Below the pieces are notes generated by a model, which saw only the letters and a list, made by a program, of their open reading frames with translations, had not been told where the DNA came from and did not search any database. Positions 14,513 through 60,476 of a stretch of DNA of 64,000 bases are shown one piece after another; the first letter of the stretch is position 1; every line of letters begins with the position of its first letter. Origin of the DNA: Owenia fusiformis (lineage: Eukaryota; Annelida; Polychaeta; Sabellida; Oweniidae); assembly GCA_903813345.2 (NCBI GenBank), contig CAIIXF020000004.1, positions 16,541,513 to 16,605,512 of the forward strand, in the 5' to 3' direction. The translations under genes and the position numbers were made by a program.

Positions 14513-14595
14513 GGGGGGGGGGGCATTGTTGAAATGCATTGTCACGAGAATTTACAAGGAGCTGCAACTGGGAGGTAAACTAATCAAGATGAAAC

Positions 14596-14807
14596 ATAGG
14601 GAGGTTAGGTCACACGTTTATAAGAGAACATTCACGCAAGCGTGTAATTAATATTTTGACCCCAGAGTATACTGTTTATCTCTCAATTCATTAATCTCAG
14701 TCCCAGGGACCTATTTACAATTATTTTAGTAAACACTACAAATGGGAGAAATAATCCATAGAAGACCATAATTCTACACGTTCACGTACGTAACTTAACC
14801 TCCCTAT
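14596..14807. mobile_element. Small TIR element (MITE) downstream of copy A, seed of the 122-bp satellite
   Basis: Perfect 12-base inverted ends: ATAGGGAGGTTA at 14596-14607 and TAACCTCCCTAT at 14796-14807. The interior holds one partial unit of the sequence that forms the large satellite in block B: it runs AGTCCCAGGGACCTATTTAC ... ACACGTTCACGTACG but lacks about 28 internal bases. Confidence 0.7.
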
Positions 14808-16940: not shown

Positions 16941-18480
16941 CAGAGGAACTTGATCAGAACATGTTCTGGTATCTATTAAATAGGAGCCGAAAGAATTGTA
17001 ATCCCAAATCTAATTTAATCAGAAACGATAATGGAGATATCCTCTCGGATCCAAGCGAAATATGCATGGAATGGAAAAGTTATTTTGAAGAGGAACTTGA
17101 TCAGAACATGTTCTGGTATCTATTAAATAGGAGCCGAAAGAATTGTAATCCCAAATCTAATTTAATCAGAAACGATAATGGAGATATCCTCTCGGATCCA
17201 AGAGAAATATGCATGGAATGGAAAAGTTATTTTGAAAAGTTAGCCACTCCGTCAAATCCTGGTAGTTATGATGACGATTTTTATCAACGAGTGAACAATG
17301 AAATATTAGAAATGAAAACAATTTCAAATTTACAAGAAAACGTGTTTTTAAACGACCCCATTACAAAGAGTGAAATTATTACAGCAATACATCAGTTAAA
17401 TCTAAATAAAGCTGCTGGAGATGACGGTATATCTGCTGAACATTTAAGGTACGGTGGCCCAGCCGTTATCGATTTTGTTCACCTAATTTTCCAACATATT
17501 GTCAGAAATGAATATACGCAATCTTTATTTCGTACTGGAATACTAATTCCACTTTTGAAAGGTGGCAAACGCGATCCTTTAGAAAAAGATGACCACCGTG
17601 GGATTACGCTTATGACGTCACTCAGAAAAACGTTTGATATCTTCTTGTTAAACAGAAGTAAGCCGGAAATTCTTAAACATATTCCCCAACTGCAGGGCGC
17701 ATCTCTGAAATCATGCTCCTCTGTCCACTCTTACAGGTTAGCACAAGAGGCAATAACCCATAACGTGGAATCAGGACGTAACGTCTACGTCACAACAATC
17801 GATATCCGTAAAGCTTTTGACGGTGTATGGATTAACGGGCTGTTCTTCAAGTTATATAACATTGGAATCTGTGGCAAATTATGGTGCATCCTTTTTGATT
17901 CCTACAATACATATAAATGCAAAGTACGTATAGGGGAACAGTTTTCTGATACTTTCGACGTTCGACGGGGGTCCACCAGGGCGGAATTTATAGTATGCTT
18001 CTCTACCAGCTTTACAGTGCTGACGTCATAGAGGAACTTAGTGGTATGCATATCGGTGCCAAGATTAATGATATTGATGTGACATGTCCGGCGTATGCAG
18101 ACGATATGACAATCATGGCCACATATATTAATAGTATGAATATTCTTTTAAACGCGGTATACAAGCATAGCCTCAAGTGGAGATATGATATACACCCTGG
18201 AAAATGCAAAACCCTGACATTTGGAAAGAAAAGAGGAAATCATACAAATGACGTCATGATCAATGATATTCCAGTACAAACAACAAATAGCACAATTTAC
18301 CTCGGCCTGCCAATTACAAATAATTCTACGTCGGTTCCCAATACGTTACTGATAGTATTAACAAGGGATTACGTATACTAGCTTTAACTCTCCAATTTTT
18401 GAAGTGACTGCTGTCCATCTCCCTTGATTAATACAAATGTAGACGAACTGTTGCAATTGAGCCATTATATTTTCCTGTGA
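16941..18480 (+). pseudogene. LINE (non-LTR) reverse-transcriptase fragment
   Basis: Open for 356 codons from 16961, then continuing in another frame from 17995. Reverse-transcriptase landmarks in order: NKAAGDDGISAEHLR, LIPLLKGGKRDPLEKDDHRG, VTTIDIRKAFDGVW (catalytic Asp), a GVHQGG motif reached only after a frameshift in the G run at about 17967-17971, PAYADDMTIMA (catalytic YADD), GKCKTLTFGKKRG and IYLGLP. A 147-base in-frame direct repeat (unit starts 16961 and 17108) duplicates MFWYLLNRSRKNCNPK onward. The endonuclease and C-terminal parts are missing. Confidence 0.9.
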
Positions 18481-20973: not shown

Positions 20974-21226
20974 AATAGGGGACCATAAGTTTACACATTC
21001 CATGTGTACGTTCATCAAAATAGTGCGATCTTAACCTCCCTAATAACTGAAATTGTTGACTCAACCAATAGAATCATTCTATGTTTGTTTATATTTGTTC
21101 ACATTAATATGGAAGAAAATCGGACATTTTGCTAAAAAGATGTTATTGTAAATCTTAGAAATAATGATAAAGGTAGTATACACCACACACTCAATGGTAT
21201 TGATTGTGGTTTTCAGAGACTCTCAA

Positions 21227-21353
21227 TAGGGACTTTAAGCTTGCAATGTTTTTCACAACCTAAATGTGAATGGAAAATATTTAGCGATGCATTTGTATGG
21301 GCGATTGGTCATAGGTTGGCGTTTCGATTTTATATGCAAGCTTAATCTCCCTA
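21227..21353. mobile_element. 127-bp hairpin MITE
   Basis: Imperfect 19-base inverted ends: TAGGGACTTTAAGCTTGCA and TGCAAGCTTAATCTCCCTA (17 of 19 paired). A related right half (ATAGGTTGGCCTTTCGATTT to CCCCCTAATATT) recurs at 31310-31357 in intron 2 of copy B, so it is dispersed. Confidence 0.6.
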
Positions 21354-22499
21354 ATGTTAACATTAAGGTAAGAGTGTATGTTACTCATAACATTTTCTTA
21401 GGATAACATTTCTTGAATTGATGAATATGCAAAAATTATTCTTAGCATATCATCCTTCATTTCATTATTTGAATAATCAATCTGGAGATAAACTCAAATA
21501 AGGAAGTGTGTTATAAAACATCATCATATATGTTCAATGTTTTTTCAGAAGCTGGATCAAAATATTTGTCTTACTAAAATTATTGGCAAAGGTATGATGT
21601 ACTTAATTCTTGTACTGTATTTATGATTTTAATAGCACTGTACCTCGTGAATCATTACTGATAAACAAGATACAGAAAACCTGTTCAAAGTAAATGCTAT
21701 AATAAGGCATCATAGAAATTATCATAAAGAGAGGTATTTAGAATTTCTTAGCAACTTATAAATAATAAAAAAGAGACTTCTACAAACCATCAGTGTAAAA
21801 CTTACAAGTGATAGCACAGTGTGAAAAACAAGCACCAGAGACTAAACAAAGGTGGCATCAAAGCACCTAGTACAGATGGATATAAACAAACAAACAAAGC
21901 AACTTACACACACACACACAGGTTTAACTGCACTCAAACATTAAACAGTCAACTTGACAGGTATTTAGAATTTTTGGGGAAATGCTGCGGTTATGCTCCA
22001 TTGATTAAACAGGGGATCAAACAGCAGGGAACAAACAAGTCCAACCATTCATTTATGAAAACATTTTGAACTAACTTTATGGCACACTAATGACATCTTA
22101 TATGAGTGTGCTGTACTAAAAGCATAGCTTTTAGATCCCCATTGGATCCCCTTATATTGGATTATCATAATCCTAATCCACGAGGAGTTCCTTATATATT
22201 TTAAGTGATGAAACATGTGTTCAAGTACAATGTAACTTTGCATGAAAATTGTAAAAAAAAATGAGGGACGATGGTGAAAATGACGATTGTATTTTGAAAA
22301 AAGCTTGTTGATGGGTAGATTAAACATGGCTTATGAGATAATCCAATTGATCTTGAAACCATTCTTTGAATTTTTCTTAAAGATTATACATTGGCCTTTC
22401 ATATGCATTCATTTTTGTACAGCCAGAAACTACTAGAAAAAAATTATTTACTGTCAAAAATCTGTTGCGATACTTTCCCTCGCTCTTTGACATCTAGCA

Positions 22500-23616: not shown

Positions 23617-26600
23617 GTAAGTAGTTTTTTGTTGATTCGCATACTAAGAGGCCATGTTCAATTGTATCAAATTCGGTTTAACACATCCTTTAAATTTATT
23701 GAATGTGAAATGATTCCTTTAAAGATCTTTTAAGCCAAACAATTAAACATTATACCTAATAGATAATTCGCATGTTTCTGTCATGTTATGTTTTCTACAG
23801 TCTCATGTAAAATTAGAATGCATCATTTTTATGGCTTTTCACATATATTCTTATCATTTTTATATTTGTTGAGACGAATGACATGTATATTTTATTTGAA
23901 TGCACCTTTCTTCATTTAAATGGTCTACCGAAACACCTGGCTTTAGCTATATTGTATCTTAAGCTATCTTTGAGAGTTAACATCAGCTGCCCCTAGTCAG
24001 ATCGTCGAGTTGGCCGAGAGGGCTTATGCGCCAGCACGTTCAGGCTAGGCGATTGGGCGCCGTAACCACGAGGTTGCGAGTTCGAGACGCGGTGTGCTCC
24101 GTGCGTTTATTCATTTATGTAAGCTTGATAAAATGAATCTTACAGTGAAGATGATACAAGTATACCGACGGCGACAATGTGTGTTATATAGTTAAAATAT
24201 ATGTGGCAAGGATGTAGATTCATGTAGAAGACATTTGGCTTTCAACCAGGTCAACCAGGTAAGTATATCGACTGCTTAGTCAAAAGGTAAATACGTTTGG
24301 TGCTCGGAGTGAGTCACTAGAGACCTTAAGTTATACGGACGACCTGTACGTGTACCTGTAAATACACGTACACGTACAGGTTTTTTTAAATGTTCCTTTT
24401 GTGCGCCTAAAACAAGTCCTTAGTCACTCGTCGACGGGTACGTGTACGAAACAAGGAATTAGTGGGTATCAGGTGATGAAAGTATGATATTTTAAATCGG
24501 CCTACACACATATCCATAGTGATTCTGTATGGGGGAAGTGTAATTTGCTTAAGGCATACAGATATACCAATGCGTGTTAGGTGTTTGGGTGAGGTAAAGA
24601 TTTATTTATTTATTTCCAATTGTTGCTATGTAGATATTTATCTCTTGATAATTGTCTCTTGATAATTTGAGGAGATTTGTTTGTGTGTTAATCTGCTTGA
24701 TTGCTTGTTTGTTTTATGTAGTGGTTCTTACTATAAAGCACGGTGGTCTGTCTACCTGCCAACATGTCGTTCAGCCTGTTAGCCTGTCGTTCTGACTGCC
24801 AGCCTATCGGTCTGCCAGCCTTTCCGTCTGTCACCCTGTCGGTCTGCCAGCCTGCTGGCATATCGTTCTGTCTGCCAGGCTGTTGCTCTGTCTGCCAGCC
24901 TGCCAACATTCCGGTCTGTCAGCCTGCCAGCATGTCGTTCTGTCTGCCAGTATGTCAGCCTGCCGGTCTGCCAACATGTCGGCCTGTAAAATTGCCGGTC
25001 TGCCAGCCTGCCGGCATTCCGGTCTGTCAGACTCCCAGCCTGTCGTTCTGTCTGCCAGCCTGTCGGACTGCCAGCCTGTCGGTCTGCCAACCTGCCGGTC
25101 TGTCTGTCTGTCTGTCCGTCCGTCCGTCCGTCCGTCCGTCCGTCCGTCCGTCCGTTCGTCCGTCTGTCCACCCGCCCGCCCGCCCGCCCGCCCGCCTGTC
25201 TGTCTACAGTAGTTCGGCCTACTTTTTTCGTTCATGAAGTATTATCTTTCTAAATCCTAAGTTTTGGGCTCAAACAATTTTGAAAAATTCAAAGATGAAA
25301 TAAATAGTACATAGTTATGTAATACTGATCTCACTCACAATCTTTCGCGTACAGGTTCACAACAAGACGACAAAAACGCCCGGCGCTATTGAATTTACAC
25401 GTCAACGGGATTATAAAACAAGTCAGACGTGTCGAATGGAGCATAAAGTTACATGATTTGTTGCGCGCGCATTATGTTTCACGTACAGGTACAGGTACAT
25501 GTTACTATTTGGTGCAATCTTAAGGTCTCTACTATTGCTATTCGCTGAACTTCAGTGGTGCAATAGTGAAGTCCATGTTCTAAGTTATATGATAGTTGAA
25601 GAAAGAATGTGAATAATATCGTTTTAAATTTTTAAATATTTGATATTTCATAGTACACGGTACATAGTTGCAAAAGTTGATCAATACAGGGTACAAGGAA
25701 TGTAAATTGTTCAATAGTACAGGGAGCGAGAAAGTAAGCTGATCATACAGACATACAGTGAAAGTAATGCTAAAAAGGCCGCCTGTTGATGCTTTGAGGT
25801 GTCATCAATTGTTATTTAATCCAAATAAAGTAAACATTATTTTGTAGATTTAGACAATGGCTTTCAGGTCGTATGCATTTTAGTCATTAAATTAACAAGA
25901 ACACTAGATTATACGTGTTACTAAGGTATCAAATTGAAATAAAATAACGAAATTAAATATTAACACGTTAATATAAATGACTATCCGCTATCAGTATTAA
26001 TGCCTATCCGCTACTCAGAATAATTAAAATTGCCTGAACTACATGTGAAGAATCTTTCTACATAACCCCTCGAATGGTCTAATTCACTACCGTCCTCAAA
26101 AACCGATCATTTAATATGTTTTGTTCAAATTCACAAAAATACAGTTGAATAACATACTAGAAAACGTATCCACCTATAACACGATGACACGCAGTTTAAA
26201 TAACTGTTAACTGTTTTTTTTGGTACCTATCAATGTAACATTTTCGAAGGGAAACTTACATGCTCCCTGTACGTTGATATATTTACTGAAATGTATCGTG
26301 TATTGCATTCGAGTTTTGCTTCACTGCGCCCACTATTATATATCTTTGCCTACAGTGGTTTTTTGCCAACAATATTCTACAAACTGCTTGATGAATCAAT
26401 TCTATGTCTGGTAGAACACTAGAAATAAATGTAAAATGTATTTTACGTTCAGAAATATGGGATTAAACCCACGTCCTCCATTTGCAACTTAGCTGTACCC
26501 TGTTTCCCTTTTAATCGTGGTCACGGGGTAGGGTAGTGTGAATTATAAATATTCATTAGATCAACTTGGGCGACCGTTTTATATATGACAGACACATGTG

Positions 26601-35600: not shown

Positions 35601-38600
35601 CATTAAAACCCCAGGTAGTGAGATGGTAAAAGATCAGATATTGCTCTTAATAAGAAGCTAATCTTGCCCTGCTCCATATCCCATATGTCTTTCCATGAGA
35701 GCTGTCGATCGAGTGTAGACTCCCAGTGGGTCCATGCACCTTGTTTGACTAATTGTGCTAACTTCACCTGTCTACCCTTTTCCTCTGATTGCCTTATCTC
35801 CTTTACTACAAGCTTCCTTCTTGTCTCTGTGTTGGCATCTTTCCACCTGGATGTGCCATAGTTTCCAAGGCCCATCCTACCTTTACAAACGACACCTACT
35901 ATGTCTTTATGACGGAGTTGGCTTTCAGCAATACCGATTGCCTGTTGAGGATTCCATCCCCTCCCATTCGATATTGTTTCTCCCGAGCTAGTAACTTTAT
36001 TGTCCTTTGAAGAGCGTAGAGTGGTTACTGCTCTTACTTTGGCTGCTTTGTACTCTTCAAGTACTGAAGTTACCGGGAGGCTGAGCTTGGGAGATTTACT
36101 GAATAGAATACTGACGCAAATACATAATTCATCATCTTACTTCATATTTGTTCAAAACGGCGTAATATTTCGTTAAATTGGAATGTTCAGTTGAACGTTA
36201 ATTTTTAAAGATTGGCATAAGCCTATAGGGTCATGCTGCCACCATTACAATCCTGATAGAATACAGCAACTGACCAATCATAAAAAACAAGAAGTCAAAC
36301 TCACCCAAGGTTCATGAACTCAACTCTATTGAAATGTTTGGGTTGCGTTCAAGAGGATATGAAAAGGTGGCGCCCCAATGTGCGGGGTGTGATGAGAATA
36401 GGTCCAGTCTTTTCAAAAGGTCCAAACAGCCTTCTCAGAGGCCATTGAAACGCTGAAGAACAATTCACATGCATGCCATGGATGGGTTAAAAGGCTTGTG
36501 ACTGGGAAAGACATTAAACTGTGGCAAATATGACCCTATAGATGCAATGGTTAAACGAACTAGGGCTGCTAATCAAATATGGGTAACAATGGAATGGCCA
36601 AAAAACTTTATGTCCTGCGACCTTACCAATAAACTGTACAAACAATGTGCAATACTTTTTTTAAGTACCGGTATACATACAAGTCAATGTAAAACAAAAG
36701 GTTTAAATGCAGTCATTCCTCATTACCTCATACCAAAGCAGCAGTCTACACGAATCCATAGGCCCATGACGTTTTTTTAAATATTAACGTTTAACTGAAC
36801 ATTCAAATTCATAAAACAAGCCACCATTTTGAACAAATATGAGACAAATGGTGAATTATGTATTTGCGTCTCTCATACTATGAACGTCTATAATGTCAGT
36901 AAGAGATGTTCCTTAAATATCCTTTGTATGTCAGAATTTTATTCTAGTTTAAAAAATGTAATCAGATTTTGATAATACTGAAAATTAAAAAAGTTATTAA
37001 AGAAAAGGTGATCGTTGAACAATTCTGTCCGGGTTACTATGATTATGCAAGGAACTTTCTGCACGTAGGGAGTTCTCGAGATTATTGTTGTTCTTTCGCG
37101 TAATATTTTATAACTGAATGTTTACATGTACGATTGCAGGGAGGTATTAAAGCCGTTATTTGGACAGACGTCTTCCAATTCTTGATTATAATGATAGGAA
37201 TGATTATCGCATTAGCAATGGTAAATCACGTACTAGGCGTTTGCCTATCATTTTTTATATTAATTGCAATTACACTTTTCGAAATATGATGGTACATTTC
37301 AGATAATTTGAATTTCATGAAGCCGAAATCTTCATTTTGTCTTTTACATATTGATCATTAATCTGTCTATCAAGTTTGAAATGAGGGAGTCTTGGGTTGT
37401 CGTTTTTTGACTACCATGAAGTAGTATCAAAACAGCAATAATTGTTGACTCATTTTCATAAGTTTTGGTAAATTAATTGTAAGTTATTGTTGTTTCAAGG
37501 GTTGCAGTCGAGTTGGAGGCTTCGCAAATATGTGGGACCTGTGTCAGAGAGGTGGAAGAATCCAGCCAATAGAGTGATTGATTATAATTTATATAATGGA
37601 CGCTGGTTGACAGACATTTTAATAAATTTGAACTTATGATATACCAAATTAAAGATGAATAAATTCCCTATCCATTGGTATATAATATGACATATTATGA
37701 TGTTTCCATCAAGAAAATCATAATTTATTTATGAAATACGAGTGTCCCATTTTTGGACCACCCTGCATGTATATACTGTATGGATGTTTGAGTTTGTGTT
37801 CCAGCTTTGACTTGAACCCATTGACGAGACATACCTTCTGGGGCCTCACTATTGGTGTTGGGGTAATCTATACACATCCGTATGGAGTAAGCCAACCTGG
37901 AGTGCAGCGTTTTTCAGCAACACGATCACTCAAAGATGCCAGACTGTAAGCAGAATTTCTGAAAAATAATTTATGTACATTAATATATATTACCTCGAGC
38001 ATCCACAAAATTGCTAAGGCTAAACATAACACAATATCATACATTGTCATTTATTTCATTCGGGCATCCATAATATAGTTAAGGCTAAACCTAATACAAT
38101 CTCGTTACATTGTCAATTATTCCATTGGGACATCCATAATATAACTTATGCTAAACCTAATACAATCTCGTTACATTGTCAATTATTCCATTCGGGCATA
38201 CATACCATGGCTTATGTTTTACCTAAAACAATCTCGTTACATTGTCAATTATTCCATCGGGCATCCATAATATAACTTATGCTAAACCTAATACAATCTC
38301 GTTACATTGTCAATTATTCCATCGGGCATACATACCATGGCTTATGTTTTACTAATACAATCTCGTTACATTGTCAATTATTCCATCGGGCATCCATAAT
38401 ATAGCTTATGTTTTACCTAATACAATCTAGTTACATTGTAAATTATTCTATTCGGGCATTCACAATATAGTTTATGTTTGACCTAATGCAATCTCGTAAC
38501 ATTGTCAGTTATTCCATTCGGACATTAATAATATACCTGTTGCTTAATCTTAGACAGTCTCGTTACTTTGTCAATTTTTCCATTCGGACATCCATAATAT

Positions 38601-41600
38601 AACTTATGCTAAACCTAATACAATCTCATGCATTATCAATTATTCCATTCGGCCATTCATAAAATAGTTACCCTGAACCTAATACAATCTCGTTTCATTG
38701 TCAATTATTCCATTTGGACATCCATATATAGTTAAGGCTAAACCTAATACGATCTCGTTTCATTGTCCATTATTCCATTTAGGCATCCATAATATAACTT
38801 ATGCTAAACCTAATACAATCTCATGCATTGTCAATTATTCCATTCGGGCATACATACCATGGTTTATGTTTTACCTAATACAATCTCGTTACATTGTCAA
38901 TTATTCCATCGGGCATCCATAATATAGCTTATGTTTTACCTAATACAATCTCGTTACATTGTCAATTATTCAATCGGGCATTCATAATGTAGCTCATGCT
39001 TAACCTAATACAATCTCGTTACATTGTACATTGTTCCATTCGGGCATAACTTAATACAATATTCTCGTTACATTGTCAATTTTTCCATTCGGACATCCAT
39101 AATATAACTTATGCTTAAGCTTATACAATCTCGTTACATTGTCAATAATTCAATTTGGGCGTCCATAATATAGCTTATGTTTTACTAATACAATCTCGTT
39201 ACATTGTCAATTATTCCATCGGGCATCCATAAAATAGCTTATGCTCAACCTAATACAATCTCGTTACATTGTACATTGTTCCATTCGGGCATCCATAATG
39301 TGCCTTATGCTTAACTCAATACAATCTCGTTACCTTGTCCATTGTTCCATTCGGCATCCATAATATAGCTTATGCTTAACCTAATACAATATATCAATGC
39401 AACCGACCGATCATTTGTTCTTACAGGACCATGCTAACAGTTATTCCCGCCGTTTGTGTGATTTATGCGCTGACAGCTCTTGTAGGGCTCACGGTGTATG
39501 CCTATTACTCTCACATTCAATGTGACCCTATGGTTATTGGAGCTGTTACTAATATTAATCAGGTAGATTTACTGCAAGGACTCGATGCGCTGAAATTTGG
39601 GGATTCATATCATTAAACTTTGTCATTAAAGCATGCATATTATGAAATATAGTTTCAATTTTTAGATATTCCCCTACTTTGTAATGGACGTACTTGCGGT
39701 TCCAGGCATACCAGGGATATTTCTTGCAGCTATGTTTAGCGCCGCATTGAGGTGATTTTTAATATTTTAAAATCATTAGTAAAGATCTTGAACTTTCGTG
39801 TCTGTGGAGTAAAGATAGGATTGACAATGTTGTAATTCTGGATGCTCTGTTCTTATTTCAATTCCTGGTCTTACGCTTTTGAAGAGATTTTATCGACATA
39901 TTTTTCGAGGTTCGTCATAATCATGTTTCTTCTGAAAATAAACCTGAAATATATTTATCAGGATATATTAACAATACGCCGTACGTTTTATAAAGACAAA
40001 AATTAATTCAGTGTTAAACTGCTATAAAGCAGACGCGTTGGCGCCACTGGGGGTCATCTAGCAACGAAGGCACGATGTCTTCGTTTTAGAATATTTTCCA
40101 AGCAATGATTTGGATCATTCTATATTCTTTGGCCTTCATCCGAGGTGATTCTCAAGAATTCAACAAGAAATTTACGACCAGTACTTTGGACACATCCAGG
40201 GGACACATCGTGTTCGTGTCTAAAAACGTTCAAGTGCAATGTTTTGGGAACGAGTCTAGAATAAGATAAAAGCCCGTTTTGACTGCTTTTATTACCCGAA
40301 CTGTATTTCAGTACGATATCATCACTTGTTAATTCCCTTGCTGCAAATATCTGGGAAGACGTTCTTAGAGATCGCTTTCCTAACGCAAGCCTTGCTAGGG
40401 CGACGCATATTACAAAGGGATTGGGTACGTTATATATTTCTGAATCTCGCTTATTATGGAGTCATCACATTTAAGCCATGTGGGCTTACTGTTCGCTACC
40501 GTGTGGATACTTTGGTTGGGATAAGGCATTTATACACAGTGGGCAAAACAAATAGTTTTACAGCAATCTCCCATCACACCAAATAATTATTCAATTAGTC
40601 AAGTAAAAAATTAATGCCCAAAATTAGCCAGCAGGCCACATTGTGGCGAACGGTGAGCCCGCACATCGAATGTGACAGCTACTTTAATTAAAATATAACA
40701 GTGCAGTTAAGCTGTGTTTTATGGCTCATCCCAGGGTGAAGATATGCAGATTAAAATGATTACAATTTTGCGTTATTTTAGTGATTGTATTTGGGATTTT
40801 GTCGACCGTGATGGCGTTTGTTGCTATGAAGATTCCTGGTCAAATCTTGCAGGTACACATCCAGAAAATTTGTTTTGAGTTTCACCGTTACGTAACAATA
40901 GAAAATGCTTGTCGAATAGTTATACTATAAGGTAGATTTGCATATCTTTTAAGAAGCTAAGATCTTCAAAAGTTTTTCTCTAACATATTCCACAAATTAG
41001 TTACTGTTCATTTTTGAACAGGCTGGATTGTCACGCTTTCAAACCTAAGTAAAAAGTAACAAAATACTAAATTATATGGTCTGGTGTTTAGATATATAAT
41101 TCAGTATCCTTACGTTGTAGTAAAATAGTAAGTGAAAATTATACAGTTTGGACTCTTCCACTCACAGGTCACCGTGGCATTGGGCGGAGCAGTTGGAGGG
41201 TCGGTTGTTGGGATGTATTGTCTTGGAGCCTTTACGACCAGCTGCAACTGGAAGGTAAACCAGGATGAAACATTAACAATCAAAAACAGAATAATGACAG
41301 AATAGCAAGTAAAATTTCCAAAAAGACGATACTTATATTTTATTATTTTAAACGAATTTTTTCTCTTAATAACCTGAATACTTAACATAACTAATAAATA
41401 AACGCTTATTGAATACGTCTGGGGTACAATATCACTGGTCCCCATCTGGTTATAAAGACGCTACTGCTTTATAACAAAATCGATGAACTTCCGTCGAAGG
41501 AAAGTTTTCCTTTCATCATTTTCACCAACAATGCAAAGAGGTTGATTTGTACCTGGTGAATTTCGTAACGTCTTGGTTGAGTTGTGTAAACGTCCTGGTT

Positions 41601-44890: not shown

Positions 44891-45049
44891 GGGGGGGGGC
44901 ATTGTTGGAATGCATTGTCACGAAAATTTACAAGCAGCTGCAACTGGGAGGTAAACTAATCAAGATGAAATGTAGGGCGGTTAAGCGAGCGTGTAATTAA
45001 TATTTTGACCCCGGAGTTAACTGTTTATCTCTCAATTCAATTCATCATC

Positions 45050-46988
45050 TAAGTCCCAGGGACCTATTTACAATTATTTTCCGTATACCTTTATACTCAA
45101 TCAGCCAAGTAAACACTACAAATGGGAGAACTAATCCATAGAAGACCATAATTCTACACGTTCACGTACAGGTTTTTCTCTGGGACTTATTACAATTATT
45201 TCCCGTATACCTTTATACTCAATCGGCCAAGTAAACACTATAAATGGGAGAACTTATCCATAGAAGACCATAATTCTACACGTTCACGTACAGGTTTTTC
45301 TCTGGGACTTATTACAATTATTTTCCGTATACCTTTATACTCAATCAGCCAAGTAAACACTACAAATGGGAGAACTAATCCATAGAAGACCATAATTCTA
45401 CACGTTCACGTACTAGTTTTTCTCTGGGACTTATTACAATTATTTTCCGTATACCTTTATACTCAATCAGCCAAGTAAACACTACAAATGGGAGAACTAA
45501 TCCATAGAAGACCATAATTCTACACGTTCACGTACAAGTTTTTCTCTGGGACTTATTACAATTATTTTCCGTATACCTTTATACTCAATCAGCCAAGTAA
45601 ACACTACAAATGGGAGAACTAATCCATAGAAGACCATAATTCTACACGTTCACGTACAGGTTTTTCTCTGGGACTTATTACAATTATTTTCTGTATACCT
45701 TTATACTCAATCAGCCAAGTAAACACTACAAATGGGAGAACTAATCCATAGAAGACCATAATTCTACACGTTCACGTACAAGTTTTTCTGACTTATTACA
45801 ATTATTTTCCGTATACCTTTATACTCAATCGGCCAAGTAAACACTACAAATGGGAGAACTAATCCATAGAAGACCATAATTCTACACGTTCACGTACAGG
45901 TTTTTCTCTTGGACTTATTACAATTATTTTCCGTATACCTTTATACTCAATCAGCCAAGTAAAGACTACAAATGGGAGAACTAATCCATAGAAGACCATA
46001 ATTCTACACGTTCATGTACAGGTTTTTCTCTGGGACTTATTACAATTATTTTCCGTATACCTTTATACTCAATCAGCCAAGTAAACACTACAAATGGGAG
46101 AAATAATCCATAGAAGACCATAATTCTACACGTTCATGTACAGGTTTTTCTCTGGGACTTATTACAATTATTTTCCGTATACCTTTATACTCAATCAGCC
46201 AAGTAAACACTACAAATGGGAGAACTAATCCATAGACGACCATAATTCTACACGTTCACGTACAGGTTTTTCTCTGGGATTTATTACAATTATTTTCCGT
46301 ATACCTTTATACTCAATCAGCCAAGTAAACACTACAAATGGGAGAACTAATCCATAGAAGACCATAATTCTACACGTTCACGTACAGGTTTTTCTCTGGG
46401 ACTTATTACAATTATTTTCCGTATACCTTTATACTCAATCGGCCAAGTAAACACTACGTATGCGAGAACTAATCCATAGAGGACCATAATTCTACACGTT
46501 CACGTACAGGTTTTTCTCTGGGACTTATTACAATTATTTTCCGTATACCTTTATACTCAACCAGCCAAGTAAACACTACAAATGGGAGAACTAATCCATA
46601 GAAGACCATAATTCTACACGTTCATGTACAGGTTTTTCTCTGGGATTTATTACAATTATTTTCCGTATACCTTTATACTCAATCAGCCAAGTAAACACTA
46701 CAAATGGGAGAACTAATCCATAGACGACCATAATTCTACACGTTCACGTACAGGTTTTCCTCTGGGATTTATTACAATTATATTCCGTATACCTTTATAC
46801 TCAATCAGTCAAGTAAACACTACAAATGGGAGAACTAATCCATAGAAGACCATAATTCTACACGTTCATGTACAGGTTTTTCTCTGGGACTTATTACAAT
46901 TATTTTCCGTATACCTTTATACTCAATCAGCCAAGTAAACACTACAAATGGGAGAACTAATCAATAAAAGACCATAATTCTACACGTT
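45050..46988. repeat. 122-bp satellite array, part 1
   Basis: About 16 tandem units of 122 bases beginning CTCTGGGACTTATTACAATT, including ACTCAATCAGCCAAGTAAAC and GACCATAATTCTACACGTTC. Units differ by a few substitutions. Runs into the first N gap. No gene. Confidence 0.96.
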
Positions 46989-47488
46989 NNNNNNNNNNNN
47001 NNNNNNNNNNNNNNNNNNNNNNNNNNNNNNNNNNNNNNNNNNNNNNNNNNNNNNNNNNNNNNNNNNNNNNNNNNNNNNNNNNNNNNNNNNNNNNNNNNNN
47101 NNNNNNNNNNNNNNNNNNNNNNNNNNNNNNNNNNNNNNNNNNNNNNNNNNNNNNNNNNNNNNNNNNNNNNNNNNNNNNNNNNNNNNNNNNNNNNNNNNNN
47201 NNNNNNNNNNNNNNNNNNNNNNNNNNNNNNNNNNNNNNNNNNNNNNNNNNNNNNNNNNNNNNNNNNNNNNNNNNNNNNNNNNNNNNNNNNNNNNNNNNNN
47301 NNNNNNNNNNNNNNNNNNNNNNNNNNNNNNNNNNNNNNNNNNNNNNNNNNNNNNNNNNNNNNNNNNNNNNNNNNNNNNNNNNNNNNNNNNNNNNNNNNNN
47401 NNNNNNNNNNNNNNNNNNNNNNNNNNNNNNNNNNNNNNNNNNNNNNNNNNNNNNNNNNNNNNNNNNNNNNNNNNNNNNNNNNNNNNNN
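46989..47488. other. Assembly gap (500 N) inside the satellite
   Basis: Exactly 500 Ns, a placeholder length, so the true satellite size is unknown. Confidence 0.99.
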
Positions 47489-50400
47489 CCCGGAGTTAAC
47501 TGTTTATCTCTCAATTCAATTCATCATTTAAGTCCCAGGGACCTATTTACAATTATTTTCCATATACCTTTATACTCAATCAGCCAAGTAAACACTACAA
47601 ATGGGAGAACTAATCCATAGAAGACCATAATTCTACACGTTCACGTACAGGTTTTTCTCTGGGACTTATTACAATTATTTTCCGTATACCGTTATACTCA
47701 ATCAGCCAAGTAAACACTACAAATGGGAGAACTAATCCATAGAAGACCATAATTCTACACGTTCACGTACAGATTTTTCTCTGGGACTTATTACAATTAT
47801 TTTCCGTATACCTTTATACTCAATCAGCCAAGTAAACACTGCAAATGGGAGAACTAATCCATAGAAGACCATAATTCTACACGTTTACGTACAGGTTTTT
47901 CTCTGGGACTTATTACAATTATTTTCCGTATGCCTTTATACTCAATCAGCCAAGTAAACACTACAAATGGGAGAACTCATCCATAGAAGACCATAATTCT
48001 ACACGTTCACGTGCAGGTTTTTCTCTGGGACTTATTACAATTATTTTCCGTATACCTTTATACTCAATCAGCCAAGTAAACACTACAAATGGGAGAACTA
48101 ATCCATAGAAGACCATAATTCTACACGTTCACGTACAAGTTTTTCTCTGGGACTTATTACAATTATTTTCCGTATACATTTATACTCAATCAGCCAAGTA
48201 AACACTACAAATGGGAGAACTAATCCATAGAAGACCATAATTCTACACGTTCACGAACAAGTTTTTCTCTGGGACTTATTACAATTATTTTCCGTATACC
48301 TTTATACTCAATCAGCCAAGTAAACACTACAAATGGGAGAACTTATCCATAGAAGACCATTATTCTACACGTTCACGAACAAGTTTTTCTCTGGGACTTA
48401 TTACAATTATTTTCCGTATACCTTTATACTCAATCGGCCAAGTAAACACTACAAATGGGAGAACTATTCCATAGAAGACCATAATTCTACACGTTCACGT
48501 ACAGGTTTTTCTCTGGGACTTATTACAATTATTTTCCGTATACCTTTATACTCAATCAGCCAAGTAAACACTACAAATGGGAGAACTAATCCATAGAATA
48601 CCATAATTCTACACGTTCACGTACAATTTTTCTCTGGGACTTATTACAATTATTTTCCGTATACCTTTATACTCAATCAGCCAAGTAAACACTACAAATG
48701 GGAGAACTAATCCATAGAAGACCATAATTCTACACGTTCACGTACAAGTTTTTCTCTGGGACTTATTACAATTATTTTCCGCATACCTTTATACTCAATC
48801 AGCCAAGTAAACACTACAAATGGGAGAACTAATCCATAGAAGACCATAATTCTACACGTTCACGTACAGGTTTTTCTCTGGGACTTATTACAATTATTTT
48901 ACGTATACCTTTATACTCAATCAGCCAAGTAAACACTACAAATGGGATAACTAATCCATAGAAGACCATAATTCTACACGTTCACGTACAAGTTTTTCTC
49001 TGGGACTTATTACAATTATTTTCCGTATACATTTATACTCAATCAGCCAAGTAAACACTACAAATGGGAGAACTAATCCATAGAAGACCATAATTCTACA
49101 CGTTCACGTACAAGTTTTTCTCTGGGACTTATTACAATTATTTTCCGTATACCTTTATACTCAATCGGTCAAGTAAACACTACAAATGGGAGAACTAATC
49201 CATAGAAGACCATAATTCTACACGTTCACGTACAGGTTTTTCTCTGGGACTTATTACAATTATTTTCCGTATACCTTTATACTCAATCAGCCAATTAAAC
49301 ACTGCAAATGGGAGAACTAATCCATAGAAGACCCTAATTTTACACGTTCACGTACAGGTTTTTCTCTGGGACTTATTACAATTATTTTCTGTATACCTTT
49401 ATACTCAATCAGCCAAGTAAACACTACAAATGGGAGAACTAATCCATAGAAGACCATAATTCTACACGTTCACGTACAGGTTTTTCTCTGGGACTTATTA
49501 CAATTATTTTCCGTATACCTTTATACTCAATAAGCCAAGTAAACACTACAAATGGGAGAACTAATCCATAGAAGACCATAATTCTACACGTTCACGTACA
49601 AGTTTTTCTCTGGGACTTATTACAATTATTTTCCGTATACATTTATACTCAATCAGCCAAGTAAACACTACAAATGGGAGAACTAATCCATAGAAGACCA
49701 TAATTCTACACGTTCACGTACAGGTTTTTCTCTGGGTCTTATTACAATTATTTTCCGTATACCTTTATACTCAATCAGCCAAGTAAACACTACAAATGGG
49801 AGAACTAATCCATAGAATACCATAATTCTACACGTTCACGTACAGTTTTTCTCTGGGACTTATTACAATTATTTTCCGTATACCTTTATACTCAATCAGC
49901 CAAGTAAACACTACAAATGGGAGAACTAATCCATAGAAGACCATAATTCTACACGTTCACGTACAAGTTTTTCTCTGGGACTTATTACAATTATTTTCCG
50001 CATACCTTTATACTCAATCAGCCAAGTAAACACTACAAATGGGAGAACTAATCCATAGAAGACCATAATTCTACACGTTCACGTACAGGTTTTTCTCTGG
50101 GACTTATTACAATTATTTTCCGTATACCTTTATACTCAATCAGCCAAGTAAACACTACAAATGGGAGAACTAATCCATAGAAGACCATAATTCTACACGT
50201 TCACGTACAAGTTTTTCTCTGGGATTTTATTACAATTATTTTCCGTATACATTTATACTCAATCAGCCAAGTAAACACTACAAATGGGAGAACTAATCCA
50301 TAGAATACCATAATTCTACACGTTCACGTACAAGTTTTTCTCTGGGACTTATTACAATTATTTTCCGTATACCCTTATACTCAATCGGTCAAGTAAACAC

Positions 50401-52285
50401 TACAAATGGGAGAACTAATCCATAGAAGACCATAATTCTACACGTTCACGTACAGGTTTTTCTCTGGGACTTATTACAATTATTTTCCGTATACCTTTAT
50501 ACTCAATCAGCCAATTAAACACTGCAAATGGGAGAACTAATCCATAGAAGACCCTAATTCTACACGTTCACGTACAGGTTTTTCTCTGGGACTTATTACA
50601 ATTATTTTCCGTATACCTTTATACTCAATCAGCCAAGTAAACACTACAACTGGGAGAACTAATCCATAGAAGACCATAATTCTACACGTTCACGTACAGG
50701 TTTTTCTCTGGGACTTATTACAATTATTTTCCGTATACCTTTATACTCAATCAGCCAAGTAAACACTACAAATGGGAGAACTAATCCATAGAAGACCATA
50801 ATTCTACACGTTCACGTACAAGTTTTTCTCTGGGACTTATTACAATTATTTTCCGTATACATTTATACTCAATCAGCCAAGTAAACACTACAAATGGGAG
50901 AACTAATCCATAGAAGACCATAATTCTACACGTTCACGTACAGGTTTTTCTCTGGGACTTATTACAATTATTTTCCGTATACCTTTATACTCAATCAGCC
51001 AAGTAAACACTACAAATGGGAGAACTTATCCATAGAAGACCATAATTCTACACGTTCACGAACAAGTTTTTCTCTGGGACTTATTACAATTATTTTCCGT
51101 ATACCTTTATACTCAATCAGCCAAGTAAACACTACAAATGGGAGAACTAATCCATAGAAGACCATAATTCTACACGTTCACGTACAGGTTTTTCTCTGGG
51201 ACTTATTACAATTATTTCCCGTATACCTTAATACTCAATCGGCCAAGTAAACACTACAAATGGGAGAACTAATCCATAGAAGACCATAATTCTACACGTT
51301 CACGTACAAGTTTTTCTCGGGGACTTATTACAATTATTTTCCGTATACCTTTATACTCAATCGGCCAAGTAAACACTACAAATGGGAGAACTAATCCATA
51401 GAAGACCATAATTCTACACGTTCACGTACAGGTTTTTCTCTGGGACTTATTACAATTATTTTCCGTATACCGTTATACTCAATCAGCCAAGTAAACACTA
51501 CAAATGGGAGAACTAATCCATAGAAGACCATAATTCTACACGTTCACGTACAAGTTTTTCTCTGGGACTTATTACAATTATTTTCCGTATACATTTATAC
51601 TCAATCAGCCAAGTAAACACTACAAATGGGAGAACTAATCCATAGAAGACCATAATTCTTCACGTTCACGTACAGGTTTTTCTCTGGGACTTATTACAAT
51701 TATTTTCCGTATACCTTTATACTCAATCAGCCAAGTAAACACTACAAATGGGAGAACTTATCCATAGAAGACCATAATTCTACACGTTCACGAACAAGTT
51801 TTTCTCTGGGACTTATTACAATTATTTTCCGTATACCTTTATACTCAATCGGCCAAGTAAACACTACAAATGGGAGAACTAATCCATAGAAGACCATAAT
51901 TCTACACGTTCACGTACAGGTTTTTCTCTGGGACTTATTACAATTATTTTCCGTATACCTTTATACTCAATCAGCCAAGTAAACACTACAAATGGTAGAA
52001 CTAATCCATAGACGACCATAATTCTACACGTTCACGTACAGGTTTTTCTCTGGGACTTATTACAATTATTTTCCGTATACCTTTATACTCAATCAGCCAA
52101 GTAAACACTACAAATGGGAGAACTAATTCATAGAAGACCATAATTCTACACGTTCACGTACAGGTTTTTCTCTGGGACTTATTACAGTTATTTTCCGTAT
52201 ACCTTTATACTCAATCGGCCAAGTAAACACTACGTATGCGAGAACTAATCCACAGAGGACCATAATTCTACACGTTCACGTACGT
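47489..52285. repeat. 122-bp satellite array, part 2
   Basis: About 39 further units. It begins with a second copy of the array's left flank (CCCGGAGTTAACTGTTTATC ... AGTCCCAGGGACC). It shows a higher-order pattern: variant units recur about 1219 bases (10 units) apart between 48.5 and 50.9 kb. It ends at CACGTTCACGTACGTAACTT, the right end of the small TIR element. Confidence 0.96.
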
Positions 52286-52371
52286 AACTTAACCTTTCTA
52301 TTTACATTGAATGTCACAGCAGACAAAAAAGTTTGTTGGCAATTTTGAATGAAATATATAGGAATGTTATA

Positions 52372-52822: not shown

Positions 52823-53989
52823 ACACATTGAATTATTTTCCTGTCATGTTACTGGTAGATGAGAAAAAGTCAATAAATTATCACTTTACTAACCTCATAT
52901 ATCTTAACTATATGTAAGGTTTATTCCCTTGGCCAGAGTGATTTCAGATGTTTCATGCTGAAATTGATTACATTTTCAACAGGTCTAAACCATGGTTGAT
53001 ATAATATGCTACTACATACATTAGTTTTTCTTTGACATCTACTAAGAATTTACTGAGAATCTTTAACAGGAAGTGTGAAGTTGTCTGGTTTAGATTATCA
53101 CAAATACATTTCGGCAACCCGTTCAAAATTAGGTGCATGAAGATGAGCTTGCAAGAGAAGTCGAGACCTAATAAAGACGGTTAAAAGGAATTTCTAAATA
53201 ACGAGGCATGGCATTTAGTTTTGAAGTTGATAAGATATAAGCGGGGCTTCCATCACCTTTTACTATTATTTAAATCTTGAAATTGGCTGACCAATTTTAT
53301 GATCTGGTGAAAGGTTTTTCGAAAGAGCAACTCCATTGAAAATTGTTGATTTCTTAGCCAAAGCACTTGTTTGGAGGGGAATCTTATAATCCCTGTGACT
53401 CCTTAGTAATGATCGCACTTGAATGTCGTTCTCGAAAGATCTGACAAGATTACAAATGAAAGGAGGAAAGCTGTGACATCTTGATGTATATATTATATCT
53501 TACTGTACCGTCAGATGATGCAAGATCGATGTAGCACATATTAATTATTTATTCACTTACATGGTTGTATTATGTGGGTGGAAGTAGCATCAGATGGAAC
53601 TGCAAGATCTTAAATATTTGCTATTGTCTATATCATCATATAGAGAAACGGCGTCGTTTTAATCTTACATATTGTTGTATTATGTGAGAAGTGTTTCTCT
53701 CTGAGCTAGAGTACATATGATTGCCGTACCAAACAATGGTTATATCTGCAAAATCAAACATTGATGCTTGATATGTAATAAGAGAGCATTTGAATATTTC
53801 TGCTGAGAAAGAAGATCACATTATTCTGGATAATATAATTTTCAAGTTAGTGCATCCTCCAACCCTTCCCGAACGCCAAAACATCTCCGTCGAATTATGT
53901 CGTATTTAGACTTTAAAAATGTTATTTAAAACCAGAAGGCTGTATTTATTTCTACCTAAGATTCAGAGCTTCACCTTCCGTTTCAATAT

Positions 53990-55750
53990 CAGATTAAGCT
54001 TTCTTTCATTTATGTATTCACGGACTTTCCGCAAGTTTGTCATTTGAGCGACCATATGCAGAGTAAGCCAAAAAGGTAACTTCGTCTTCCATAATGAATT
54101 TTAACTCATATTTAGCACAATTAAACCTTGTGCAATGTTCCTTCATTTTACTAAGTTTCGTATGTCTACGATGTGTGGTCACGATTTTATGGCTATTTTA
54201 AAAACATGCTCAAAATGCGGAAAATCACCGATATGAATCCCTTAACTTTTATATTTGGAGCCATTTCATAGATACTGTCTACATTTACAACACTATGGGC
54301 ATGGGCATAGTGAGAGTGGGTTTGTGGGCCTCGTGCAAACTCCCATTCTCCTTGAGCCCCCTAACACTCCCTTGTTATCCCTTGTCAACAAACTAAAGGC
54401 CGGGAACGAACCCCACTTTCAGAAAGGTGACTATTTTCGCGCGAACAATGCATCACATATCTACACTAACTATTTGATGAACTTTGAAACCTTTAAAAAA
54501 CATCCCCTATACAACGTCATATTCAACCAATGGACATCAGCTTGGCTTCTTCAGCACCCGCACCATTTCACCTTCACCAGTGGTCGAGGAGTAAGACACT
54601 ATTTTTATTTATATTATCCAAATCTTATAATTACTAATGACTTCAGTGCAATTTGCTTGAATTGATTATTATTCTGCCTGGACATGATCACTTTATATGC
54701 ACAACGTATTCATTACATTCTTAACCCTAATGGCTGCAAGCTTTTAATAACCTTTTTAAGTCACAAGGGGGGGGGGGTCACTCGGACACATGAAAATTGT
54801 TAATTTTCTTTCAAAATACTGTTTGGTGCCCAAAATGCTATATTTTCTAAAAAATAATCTATTATCTTTCAAATAAACTAAAAGCCAAGGCAATGGCTTT
54901 TCGAGAACTGAAGTTAATGTGCACCTTCAAATATAGCAGGTATAGCGAAAACCAAATGACATCAAATGTACTTAGGTGGTTCAAAAAGTTTTGCAGTTGA
55001 TGCCATAACTTCAAGGAAAATAGGACTTTTACAATGAAACTTGGTACACATATGTGTTATTTTGATTGGTTCTTGAGATATGGTTGCTATGGTAACCAGA
55101 GTGGTGGGTACCATGTTCAACCCGAAATTACGTTTTTCCAAATAGTTGCTTGAATAAACTCTTTGTAAAGTGGCAATTACCAGGTGTAATATAAGTGTCT
55201 TTGGGTGGCTATTTTTCTTCAAATTCTTCAATTTTTCTAATTGTCTCTATGATATCACAATAGACAAGTGGCACGATAAGTTCCTTTGTAATGTATACTG
55301 TCCAAAACCCAGTTGAAAAATTGAGATGGAAAAGTGAGGAAATTTTGAATTTTTTTCCCAAAATTTTCAAAATGGCAGATGTTTCCACACCAACCAAATT
55401 GATGAAATGGAAGCATAGAAATATGATACAGTGCATGATTCAAAATGGCAAGACTTTGCAAGAGACTTATGAACTGGTTCAGGGAGCAATAAAATGTAAT
55501 TGAATAATCAACAATTTCAAGCTTGCCTTTGTTTTTGTCTTTGACATTCATATTTAAAGATGACAAACAACCATCATTGATTTATGCAGAGTAATGAAGA
55601 CGTTTACAGTAGGGATGTCCGTACTCCGGAAGCTTGGTTACAGGTATTACCAGTATTTCAATAAACAGATATCAAAACTAAGCAACGGATAATCAGTGTT
55701 TCAAACAGTTAAGGCAAAATGGGTAATGTCAATGCTGGTTTTAAGAAGTA
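53990..55750 (+). pseudogene. Decayed third SLC5A-like copy (exon 13-14 relic)
   Basis: Collinear fragments of the transporter gene. 53990-54060 resembles intron 12 (copy A 11290-11350). 54510-54600 resembles the 3' part of exon 13 up to its GTCGAGGA|gtaaga donor. 54600-54740 resembles intron 13. 55597-55750 resembles the end of exon 14 and the start of intron 14, including the GTTACAG|gtattacc donor. Exon 14 carries an internal 4-base insertion, and upstream exon 13 sequence is replaced by unrelated DNA. About 0.85 kb of foreign sequence (54750-55590) splits the two parts. Not expressible as a transporter. Confidence 0.75.
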
Positions 55751-56330
55751 TCAGTGTTGAACGTGGAAATATATAGTCATCATTTTTCCTATACGTTCTT
55801 ACATTTATTAGAATATAATAAAAGATTAGAGAAATTGGAGAGTTGTTATGATAACTTTATGCAAACGCCTCGTATAAATATATAATGGATTCTGATTTCC
55901 AATTAAGGATTGGGGATTACCAATATAACAAGCAAGATTATCTGTATCAAATATGGGCTCTTGGGCCATCCTAGAACATAGCTAAAATTAAACACGTAAT
56001 GAGCGACGTGTAATCGCTCATCTACACGTAAAAACCGATAACTTTCACGCTAACCCCCTGACGCTTACCTGTAGAAAGAAGACTTATCTGACGTCATTTT
56101 CCTGCGCGCGCATAGACATAGAAGTTCACATTCATGCTTTATTGAATCAAGGGCGAACGTAATACGGCGGAACGTTCGCAAAGTGGCGTTCGTTTTTTAC
56201 CGCATCCGATTTGAATTAGCCAATAAACATGATAGGGGTGTGAGAACTTTGAAATTTTTTCTAACGATGCGTCTTACCTCCCTTTGAACATAAGTCCAGA
56301 GCTGAATATGTCAGCACATGTTGATGATTG
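55751..56330. other. Intergenic, nothing assigned
   Basis: 56080-56160 (TGACGTCATTTTCCTGCGCGCG) resembles 58300-58360 (CGACGTCATTTCATCTGCGCGC), so a small dispersed repeat is likely. No coding evidence. Confidence 0.45.
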
Positions 56331-56334
56331 GTAA

Positions 56335-57033
56335 GTGAATTTACAAACTTCATCGAACGTACTCGAACGGGTCGGTTAGAACATGCTCAAAATGTTCTCG
56401 TGGTCGTCACGTTCTACAATTAGAACGAGTGACAACGTACTAACGACGAGCTGGACGTACTACGAACGGAACCGTCGTACTTCAATCCTACTAGGGACGT
56501 TTTTACAACGAGTTGAACTATCCGAGGACGTATTGAGAACGAGGTAGAACTAATTGCAAACGGGTTTAAACTGACTAAGAGCGTATTAAAGACTGCTTAT
56601 GAACGAGTTAGCAAAGCTATAGCTATCACACCAAACAAGTTGCCACTGCGTTCTTCAAAACTGGTTTTAAACTGTGTGCGAACGGAATGAACGTAGCTGC
56701 AACTTTCTAAGGTCTATTTACGAACTTCATGAACGTTCTCAGACGGGAAGGTGATTTCAGAAGTTTGGATCGATTCAAAATCCGATGGCGACCATACCGG
56801 TCTGTAATCAGGTCATGATGACCTTCTAGACTAAGGGACGCTTTATACGACGTTGCACACCGACGTGGTGCGACCTGGACGAACTGCGAGTGAGATGGAC
56901 GTATTGAATACTGTTTATGAACGAAGTAACTAATTATTTTAGACAAAATTCCCGACCACAGCCAGATTGAGCCCGTTTTACAACGTTTTCGTAGGACTGG
57001 CAAGAACGGGTAAGAACTAGTTTGGTGTGATAG
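56335..57033. mobile_element. AACG-rich quasi-repeat with a TIR element
   Basis: Inverted ends CTATCACACCAAACAAGTT (from 56613) and AACTAGTTTGGTGTGATAG (57015-57033) bound a MITE of about 420 bases. Inside it and in the 280 bases to its left, phrases such as GAACGAGTT, AACGGG and ACAAACTTCATCGAACGT recur in degenerate form. Confidence 0.55.
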
Positions 57034-57108
57034 GTGGATTACGTAACATATTTTCTATAGTTTAGTGAATTACGGTCACGAACCGTTCGGAAACAACTAG
57101 CCTTTCCC

Positions 57109-57132
57109 AATGGCCATGATATCATGGCCATT
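57109..57132. repeat. 24-base perfect palindrome
   Basis: The centre reads TGGCCATGATATCATGGCCA, extended by AA on the left and TT on the right. Too short and isolated to assign to an element. Confidence 0.9.
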
Positions 57133-58439
57133 ACGCATACCTTTATTTATAATGACGCAGCAGCAAACTGCGATAAACTATGCACCCTATCTTTATATGC
57201 TCCGAAATCACTCTGCTACGTTTTTAGTGAAGTAATTTGGTATTTCATGAGTAATTAGGAGATTTGTGTCAAGAATTTGGAACAAATTTTGAAAATTAAT
57301 ATCCTCCTTATGCGCATGCGCGGTAACGCATGTCAAACTTTTAACAAATCGAAATCATTATATCAATACTAGTTTAATAACATAAACGGACAATTAATTT
57401 AAAACGTTTAATCAACACTGTAATAGGACACGGTCCACTTTAAAACATGTCAAGTAAAACACGTTTAGCTTTAGCGAAACCTTATTATAATAATTTCGTT
57501 TCTTGGTGTTCATATAGATTTGCATATCGACCAGAGGAACAGGTTCAACGAAGTTGAAATTGCTTGGACATTATACTTATAGAACGAAGGATTTACGATA
57601 ATTAAGAACTCAAGAATTACAATTTCAACTGTATAAATGAGACAGGAAAGAAGTGGGCTGGTCAAATAAAGGGCAGGTCTCCAACTAACATCATAATTTT
57701 AACATTTATGAGTGCCGAATTCTGCGACAATCTATTCTATGGTATGCGAGATGTCCCTAGTAGGACTAGGGATATCTTGAAGTCTAGAAACAACAGTTAA
57801 AACTAAGATTGTCCGCGTCCGTTTTGATTGCGCTGACGAGAAACCAACGGGGTCTTCTCATATGCATAATTAGGTCATCTTATACTCCGCTATAGAGCTG
57901 GGTAAGGGGGGTAACACTGACTGACAGAAAACACAATCTCCACTTCAAGTACATTTCCCTGTTTGTTCGTATTAACCCTTATTTATATATGCATATTTAA
58001 GTTAATCAGTGATGTAGCTAATGATGTGAACGGATTGCAATGCCATAGAGTAAAATAACCGCAAAACGGTACAGAAAAAGGTACCTAGGTCTGAGAAAAA
58101 CTACCCCCCCCCCCTATACACCATTGTCTAATGAAGACCAAACAAAGTCCCGGATGTCGTGTCGTTTCTCGTTTCGTTTGGTACGCAACTAAGCCCCGGA
58201 TATTAAATAAGCCCTTGGTTGAATACGCGTCTGTAAATTGCACCAATATGATAATCTCATGTAAAAACCTGTAAACTCCACGCTGGCCCACAGAAAATAA
58301 ACAAATCCGACGTCATTTCATCTGCGCGCCCATTGAAGTTCAGGTTCAAGTTTTGTTAAATGCGTGTAGATTTCCCTCTCTACTGATTGAAATGTAAATT
58401 GACTTCATTTCCTATGCCTCCAATTTTTTCCTCAATTAC
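57133..58439. other. Intergenic, nothing assigned
   Basis: No gene; short poly-C run at about 58106; see the small repeat noted for 58300-58360. Confidence 0.5.
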
Positions 58440-59035
58440 AGTAGGTTGAAAATTGATGATAAATGGGAAATGGTAGGTTTGCCGCAAGACATACTCATCC
58501 ATCTTAGTTCTTGTAATAATTCCAAGGTAGGTAGTCAATTGGATAATTTCTCTTTCATTAACGATCCATTTTGTGACTGTGGAGCTCGAGAGACAGCACA
58601 ACATAAATTCCTGTCCTGCCCTCTGAGAGAAACAAATGCGCAAGCGGTGGTCAAACATGAACTAAACTTAGATGTAACTAAATACAAAACATTAAGAAAT
58701 AAGACAAATTTCCTACTTTTTGGCGACAAGGATCTGGCAAATGAAAACAATTCCAAAATCTTTAGGCAGTTTTAAATTTCATTAAACACAATCAATCAAT
58801 CGATAACAGTAATTCAAATTCAGGGCACCAACGGGGGTACAGACAGGTAGAAAAACAGATTGTATCTAAGTTCTATATTTCTTATACTAACTATGACTAT
58901 GTAATTATATTGTAATTTAAATTCACTCAAAGCGGCAGTAAAAATGCCCATTCTGGGCGATTACGTCCTGAATAACAATGTAAAATTTATGATTTTGAGA
59001 AATAAAGAGTATTTATTATTTAAAAAATCACGATA
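58440..59035 (+). pseudogene. LINE 3' end fragment (zinc-knuckle C-terminus and 3' UTR)
   Basis: Open for 109 codons to 58775. Contains FCDCGARETAQHKFLSCPLR, the CxC ... E ... H ... C motif near the C-terminus of many non-LTR retrotransposons, then NFLLFGDKDLANENNSKIFR, also typical of that tail. AATAAAGAG lies near 59001. The RT domain is absent. Confidence 0.75.
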
Positions 59036-59059
59036 CCCCCCAGTGACCTTTGTAAGTCG

Positions 59060-59976: not shown

Positions 59977-60476
59977 NNNNNNNNNNNNNNNNNNNNNNNN
60001 NNNNNNNNNNNNNNNNNNNNNNNNNNNNNNNNNNNNNNNNNNNNNNNNNNNNNNNNNNNNNNNNNNNNNNNNNNNNNNNNNNNNNNNNNNNNNNNNNNNN
60101 NNNNNNNNNNNNNNNNNNNNNNNNNNNNNNNNNNNNNNNNNNNNNNNNNNNNNNNNNNNNNNNNNNNNNNNNNNNNNNNNNNNNNNNNNNNNNNNNNNNN
60201 NNNNNNNNNNNNNNNNNNNNNNNNNNNNNNNNNNNNNNNNNNNNNNNNNNNNNNNNNNNNNNNNNNNNNNNNNNNNNNNNNNNNNNNNNNNNNNNNNNNN
60301 NNNNNNNNNNNNNNNNNNNNNNNNNNNNNNNNNNNNNNNNNNNNNNNNNNNNNNNNNNNNNNNNNNNNNNNNNNNNNNNNNNNNNNNNNNNNNNNNNNNN
60401 NNNNNNNNNNNNNNNNNNNNNNNNNNNNNNNNNNNNNNNNNNNNNNNNNNNNNNNNNNNNNNNNNNNNNNNNNNNN
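59977..60476. other. Assembly gap (500 N)
   Basis: Exactly 500 Ns of placeholder. It cuts the sequence right at the shared end of the second LINE fragment. Confidence 0.99.

Follow-up and report, generated by a model that had tools for sequence, protein, structure and literature searches.

The question raised by this 64,000-nucleotide stretch of Owenia fusiformis DNA (the window) is whether a 122-bp satellite was born inside a small TIR element and then expanded in one of two paralogous copies, as a sequence-only reading had proposed. The window carries a tandem duplication, with block A at 1-26148 and block B at 31561-64000; it is low in GC and contains many minisatellites and a reverse-transcriptase-like frame, features that point to a eukaryote. 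An Rfam search gave no match at gathering score and, among the four of 21 listed ORF stretches compared with Pfam, three had no family and one matched RVT_1 with 25.1 bits, under the cut-off of 29.6. A 147-bp direct duplication (2.0 copies) was observed in block A, at 16942-17236, within the reverse-transcriptase-like frame. Furthermore, a 65-bp minisatellite shows 30.3 copies in one block (6916-8877) and 21.6 in the other (37995-39390), so that a change in array length is not special to the TIR element.

One element in two duplicated blocks

As had been claimed from the sequence, block A holds a small TIR element with a single partial satellite unit, which lies at 14706-14789 (Table 1). The inverted ends of this copy, ATAGGGAGGTTA and TAACCTCCCTAT, are perfect over 12 bp and their 18-nt arms are 89% complementary. 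When aligned, they reach a score of 28, whereas the highest of 300 shuffles was 24; each of 10 Markov controls of the whole window, however, contained 0-5 perfect 12-mer inverted pairs whose arms were 60-300 apart, so that a single pair of this kind is not unusual in 64 kb. No microsatellite is visible by eye at the left end of copy A, and the ends of this copy, to which the folding analysis was restricted, fold no better than shuffles (z of -0.41 and -0.11, with 62 and 94 of 200 shuffles as good). Of dispersed copies, the window shows only a similar right end at 20975-21046, with a score of 55.5 against 35 for the best of 1342 control tiles, and arrays of the unit are found in the window only inside the element. 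Neither a transposase nor a complete further copy of the element was found in the window, so we infer its mobility, which is probable. In addition, the stretch 21224-21356 shows an inverted-repeat pair of 22 nt, 86% complementary, whose AGGGA/TCCCT ends resemble those of the element.

Table 1. Positions in the window of the element, its satellite units and the related flanking sequences.
Feature	Position	Strand	Basis or remark
Left-flank paralogue that lacks the element	10737-10805	+	76.7% identity over 73 columns; empty-site alignment
Copy A of the small TIR element, holding a single shortened unit	14596-14807	+	12-bp perfect inverted ends
Left TIR of copy A, ATAGGGAGGTTA	14596-14607	+	
Single unit of copy A, 84 bp	14706-14789	+	Alignment, BLAST
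Right TIR of copy A	14796-14807	-	
Second copy of the left-flank paralogue, block B	41205-41273		
Copy B of the element, left end ahead of the gap	44973-45058	+	TIR degenerate
Array P, 16 units of 122 bp	45059-46988	+	Right end lost in the gap
Assembly gap of 500 N	46989-47488	.	Between arrays P and Q
Left interior of the element, second occurrence, start of the post-gap sequence	47489-47537	+	48/49 bases identical to 45010-45058
Array Q, 39 units of 122 bp	47538-52283	+	Both junctions present
Right end of element copy B	52284-52300	+	Degenerate TIR

In block B, the best local alignment of the element ends scores only 15 and lies off the ends, with a mean of 14 and a best of 21 in 300 shuffles. 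Its left end lacks 27 bp near the left TIR in relation to copy A, a different segment from the 27 bp missing in the unit of copy A. TRF gave 15.8 copies for array P and 38.9 for array Q, and its scores of 3585 and 8879 place both far above chance. The unit of copy A and the arrays of copy B begin at one and the same junction, CCCAGGGACCTATTTACAATTATTTT, and also have their right junction, TTCACGTACGTAACTTAACC, in common; the left one is found in A, P and Q and the right one in A and Q (the right end of P is not visible). The statement that both states lie between the same flanks was correct for the position and for both junctions, but flank identity is uneven: 98.8% over the 5 kb upstream of the element, 92.0% over the left flank together with the element's left interior, 95.6% and 94.9% in two stretches to its right, and 98.0% past the second gap. 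Several-kb insertions also distinguish the blocks, such as 53599-59046, which has no counterpart at 16935-17551. The fall in identity from about 98.8% to 92-97% is located at 14100-14600, close to an 80-bp tandem repeat on the left side of the element, and is perhaps the boundary of a recent exchange between the blocks.

Since the left interior of the element restarts after the gap, block B shows two arrays, one cut by the gap (P) and one complete (Q). The single array of about 55 units described previously is thus the sum of 16 and 39 units, each series with its own left junction, and the presence of the left interior on both sides makes unit counts across the gap unreliable. The two arrays are most likely alleles, or two copies of one locus, juxtaposed by scaffolding; two real neighbouring arrays are also possible. 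Eleven of the 20 variants of P occur among the 39 variants of Q, and unit P_12 has five in common with Q_39, the last unit, which indicates that the arrays are related. Any unit order common to P and Q is weak: 50 of 1000 shuffles do as well by variants, and 265 of 1000 when plain distance is used. Nor does P simply overlap Q, as the best offset still leaves a mean difference of 2.5% over 11 units.

The left flank of the element has a paralogue without the element, which is present in both blocks and reads GATGAAACAT followed by TAACA where copy A has the element. Its homology is clear on the left side only; to the right of the junction five bases match, then one of the next two, and a gap follows. 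With the flanks of copy A joined and AT counted once, the comparison is compatible with a 2-bp AT duplication or with an insertion between two Ts without duplication (CAT joined to TAAC), and is suggestive only. Before the paralogue, the stretch 10700-10790 appears by eye to be exon-like and then to show a splice donor; if these are an exon and its donor, the element would lie in an intron of a paralogous copy.

The satellite unit, its linker and array growth

In relation to the 122-bp unit, the unit of copy A lacks 27 internal bp, which are present in 55 of 55 array units, and the 12-bp linker found between units. Of the 62 bases that form the common right part, 61 agree with the unit consensus. 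Without these 27 bp and the linker, copy A as it stands is not the source of the arrays and, as copies A and B each lack a different 27 bp, neither is an unaltered forerunner of the other. As the array is placed inside the element and its junctions are common to A and B, one ancestral element consisted of the left end, one or more units and the right end. Of the proposal that the monomer derives from the element and expanded in one paralogue, the location inside the element and the common junctions hold; a birth of the satellite here, or an expansion in B alone, does not follow, since copy A lacks the 27 bp and the linker.

The best match of the linker in the left interior of the element covers 9 of 10 bases, a level also reached by 51 of 2000 shuffles and by 21 of 484 window tiles, and a copy of the element's GTTTATCTCT as linker source was left as a weak candidate. 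The 23 bp made up of the unit end and the linker recur at 24363-24385 with 22 identities and a score of 41 against 33 for the best of 20 order-2 Markov controls, and this match sits within a palindromic stretch. The linker may consequently originate outside the element, which weakens the derivation of the monomer from the element. The wider region 24342-25194 begins with this palindrome, after which come CTGCC-rich repeats and, at 25098-25194, a (GTCC)n run that resembles the left-end microsatellites reported for oyster HINE elements. Exact unit patterns had no match in viral contigs (31 bases) nor in bacterial and archaeal genomes (22 bases). A search of the literature on 122-bp satellite DNA in molluscs gave no paper, a result of little weight.

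Comparison of array Q with itself revealed an ordered self-similarity, with a best path of 43.4 over 16 unit pairs; none of 300 shuffles of the unit order came up to this value, the best of them reaching 31.4. Part of the path pairs units 9-18 with units 19-28, which lie 10 units (1.2 kb) further on; the pair 12/22 is skipped in it, and this pair stands at 1.8% difference in the plain-distance comparison. This order supports growth by multi-unit duplication. In array P, the internal unit order is weak, with 12 of 300 shuffles as good by variants and 26 of 300 by distance.

Age of the arrays and competing histories

On average, the units of P differ from the consensus by 1.9% (15 units, 95% interval 1.4-2.6%) and those of Q by 1.8% (37 units, 95% interval 1.5-2.2%), in counts that omit P_1, Q_1, Q_23 and the first 12 alignment columns and keep Q_22, although the boundary between Q_22 and Q_23 is misplaced. 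These distances correspond to a between-unit divergence of 3.6-3.9%, about 3.7%, and direct pairwise means are 3.6% in P and 3.2% in Q. Divergence between blocks A and B is 1.16% upstream (58/5006 sites), 7.9% in the adjoining left flank and left interior (13/164), 5.0% in the right flank (92/1836) and 2.0% past the second gap (37/1857). The step near 14.2-14.5 kb suggests a later exchange between the blocks upstream of it. By the clock of the right flank, the last homogenisation or growth of the arrays postdates the split of A and B, and by that of the upstream sequence it predates the split; with unit divergence between the two values, the timing is ambiguous. Furthermore, homogenisation can give an old array a young look, and therefore these figures do not date the origin of the arrays.

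The history that we consider probable is one in which unequal exchange causes copy-number drift in the internal array of a non-autonomous TIR element, with block B represented by two arrays that meet at the gap. A MITE-like, non-autonomous TIR element with at least one internal 122-bp unit would have been at this site before the block duplication; shared ancestry is based on the same position and the same junctions in both blocks, and the insertion before duplication is presumed, as is mobility. The element ends would stay fixed and the internal unit number would shift by unequal exchange or slippage, to which multi-unit duplication, the putative mechanism behind the order observed in Q, would contribute. 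The outcome would be a copy A with one shortened unit and a block B with long arrays, the two arrays of B being presumably versions of one locus, either alleles or a further copy, set together across the 500-N gap.

A sub-case compatible with this drift is that of a one-unit ancestor, tandemly duplicated in the B lineage after the block duplication, which we regard as a serious candidate that falls somewhat short of being probable. The unit divergence (twice 1.8-1.9%) is lower than the 5.0% of the right flank, array Q shows multi-unit duplication, and copy A agrees with the unit consensus at all but one of the 62 bases of the common right part. However, copy A lacks the 27 bp and the linker and could at best descend, with changes, from a single-unit state, the apparent youth of the arrays may be due to homogenisation, and the element offers no convincing source for the linker, whereas the unit end with its linker is found at 24363-24385. 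The unit divergence is also higher than the 1.16% upstream, and this agrees with the other sub-case, a contraction: an ancestral array would have disappeared from copy A through unequal exchange, with one hybrid unit left behind that later lost 27 bp. The form of copy A, with both junctions and no linker, is that expected from an exchange between first and last units followed by one deletion, and the presence of the unit end with its linker elsewhere in the window fits this contraction too. Nevertheless, five variants of Q_39 (alignment columns 74, 75, 79, 93 and 97) are missing from copy A, in a comparison based on the right part of its unit, from column 63, because the alignment misplaces the left part around the 27-bp gap, so that the exchange point would be near the unit end or the variants would be later; the blocks also differ by 7.9% near the element and 5.0% to its right, and the 1.16% need not date the split of the element. 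We hold such a contraction as possible, with some doubt.

Alternatively, A and B could be haplotypes of one locus placed in tandem by the assembly, as might be suspected from the 500-N gaps at 46989-47488 and 59977-60476, both within block B, and from an identity of 98-99% between the blocks across long stretches. This is unlikely, given that 1-46988, which comprises block A and the first half of block B, is gap-free, that identity between the blocks is uneven and that insertions of several kb separate them. Even more doubtful is the reading that the region, with one single-unit state and two array states of one inserted element, records the growth of a satellite inside a transposon, by multi-unit duplication and later than a block duplication that can be dated, its linker being captured from the unrelated palindrome at 24342-24385 and not made from the element. 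We return, then, to a drifting copy number inside a small TIR element: the variation is real and fairly ordinary, and the previous claims on array length and on the birth of the satellite were overstated. The locus is useful for studying array growth inside transposons, as it shows the single-unit and array states of one insertion with measurable flank divergence, and the two arrays joined at a gap matter for measuring array size from assemblies.

Comparison with known systems

The process has already been described in frogs, flies and bivalves, in which non-autonomous elements contain arrays of variable length, single-monomer copies included, and the present locus behaves like these cases. 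In Drosophila virilis, Tetris and TIR-220 contain element-internal repeat arrays of tens of units, with up to 66 copies in Tetris (PMC4079207); according to this description its units are about 94% similar, compared with 96% at the present locus. The Tetris repeats are reported to lie in long foldback TIRs with TSDs of 8-10 bp (PMC4079207), whereas here the array is central and the TIRs are short, and a foldback of the Tetris type was discarded for this reason.

As regards target site, the empty-site paralogue allows the 2-bp AT duplication described for ISL2EU transposons, whose TIRs usually start with GG (PMC4482050). With AT taken as the duplication, however, the TIR starts here with AGGG, and the A that is conserved before AT in the ISL2EU account is replaced by C. 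ISL2EU elements are described with a transposase carrying DDE and THAP domains and with a YqaJ partner; no transposase was seen here.

Cg_HINE elements of Crassostrea gigas and Pearl elements are described as conserved ends flanking a central array (PMC7492417, PMC8268682), an arrangement like the one found here. For most of the satellites inspected in C. gigas, single monomers are given as the commonest class, with longest arrays of 9 to 48 monomers (PMC8268682), and the longest HINE/Pearl arrays are put at 29 and 48 units in the two papers (PMC7492417, PMC8268682). Cg_HINE is reported to insert between two Ts without duplication, which the empty-site paralogue also allows. It differs from the present element in its inverted repeats, subterminal in Cg_HINE and apparently terminal here, and the end structures of Helentron-related HINE elements, a microsatellite at the left end and a 3' palindrome that forms a stem-loop, were rejected for copy A, which shows neither a left microsatellite nor a significant end hairpin.

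The short TIRs of a MITE are recognizable in copy A (score of 28 against 24 in shuffles) and not in the degenerate copy B (15 against 21). Among MITEs, miDNA4 of Xenopus carries, in the model of Scalvenzi and Pollet as presented in reviews (PMC12628747, PMC9659126), an internal satellite that may consist of one monomer or of an array with a varying number of copies. miDNA4 is related to Tc1/mariner, and its likeness to the present element is one of architecture: the same ends surround one or many monomers, as in copy A and in arrays P and Q.
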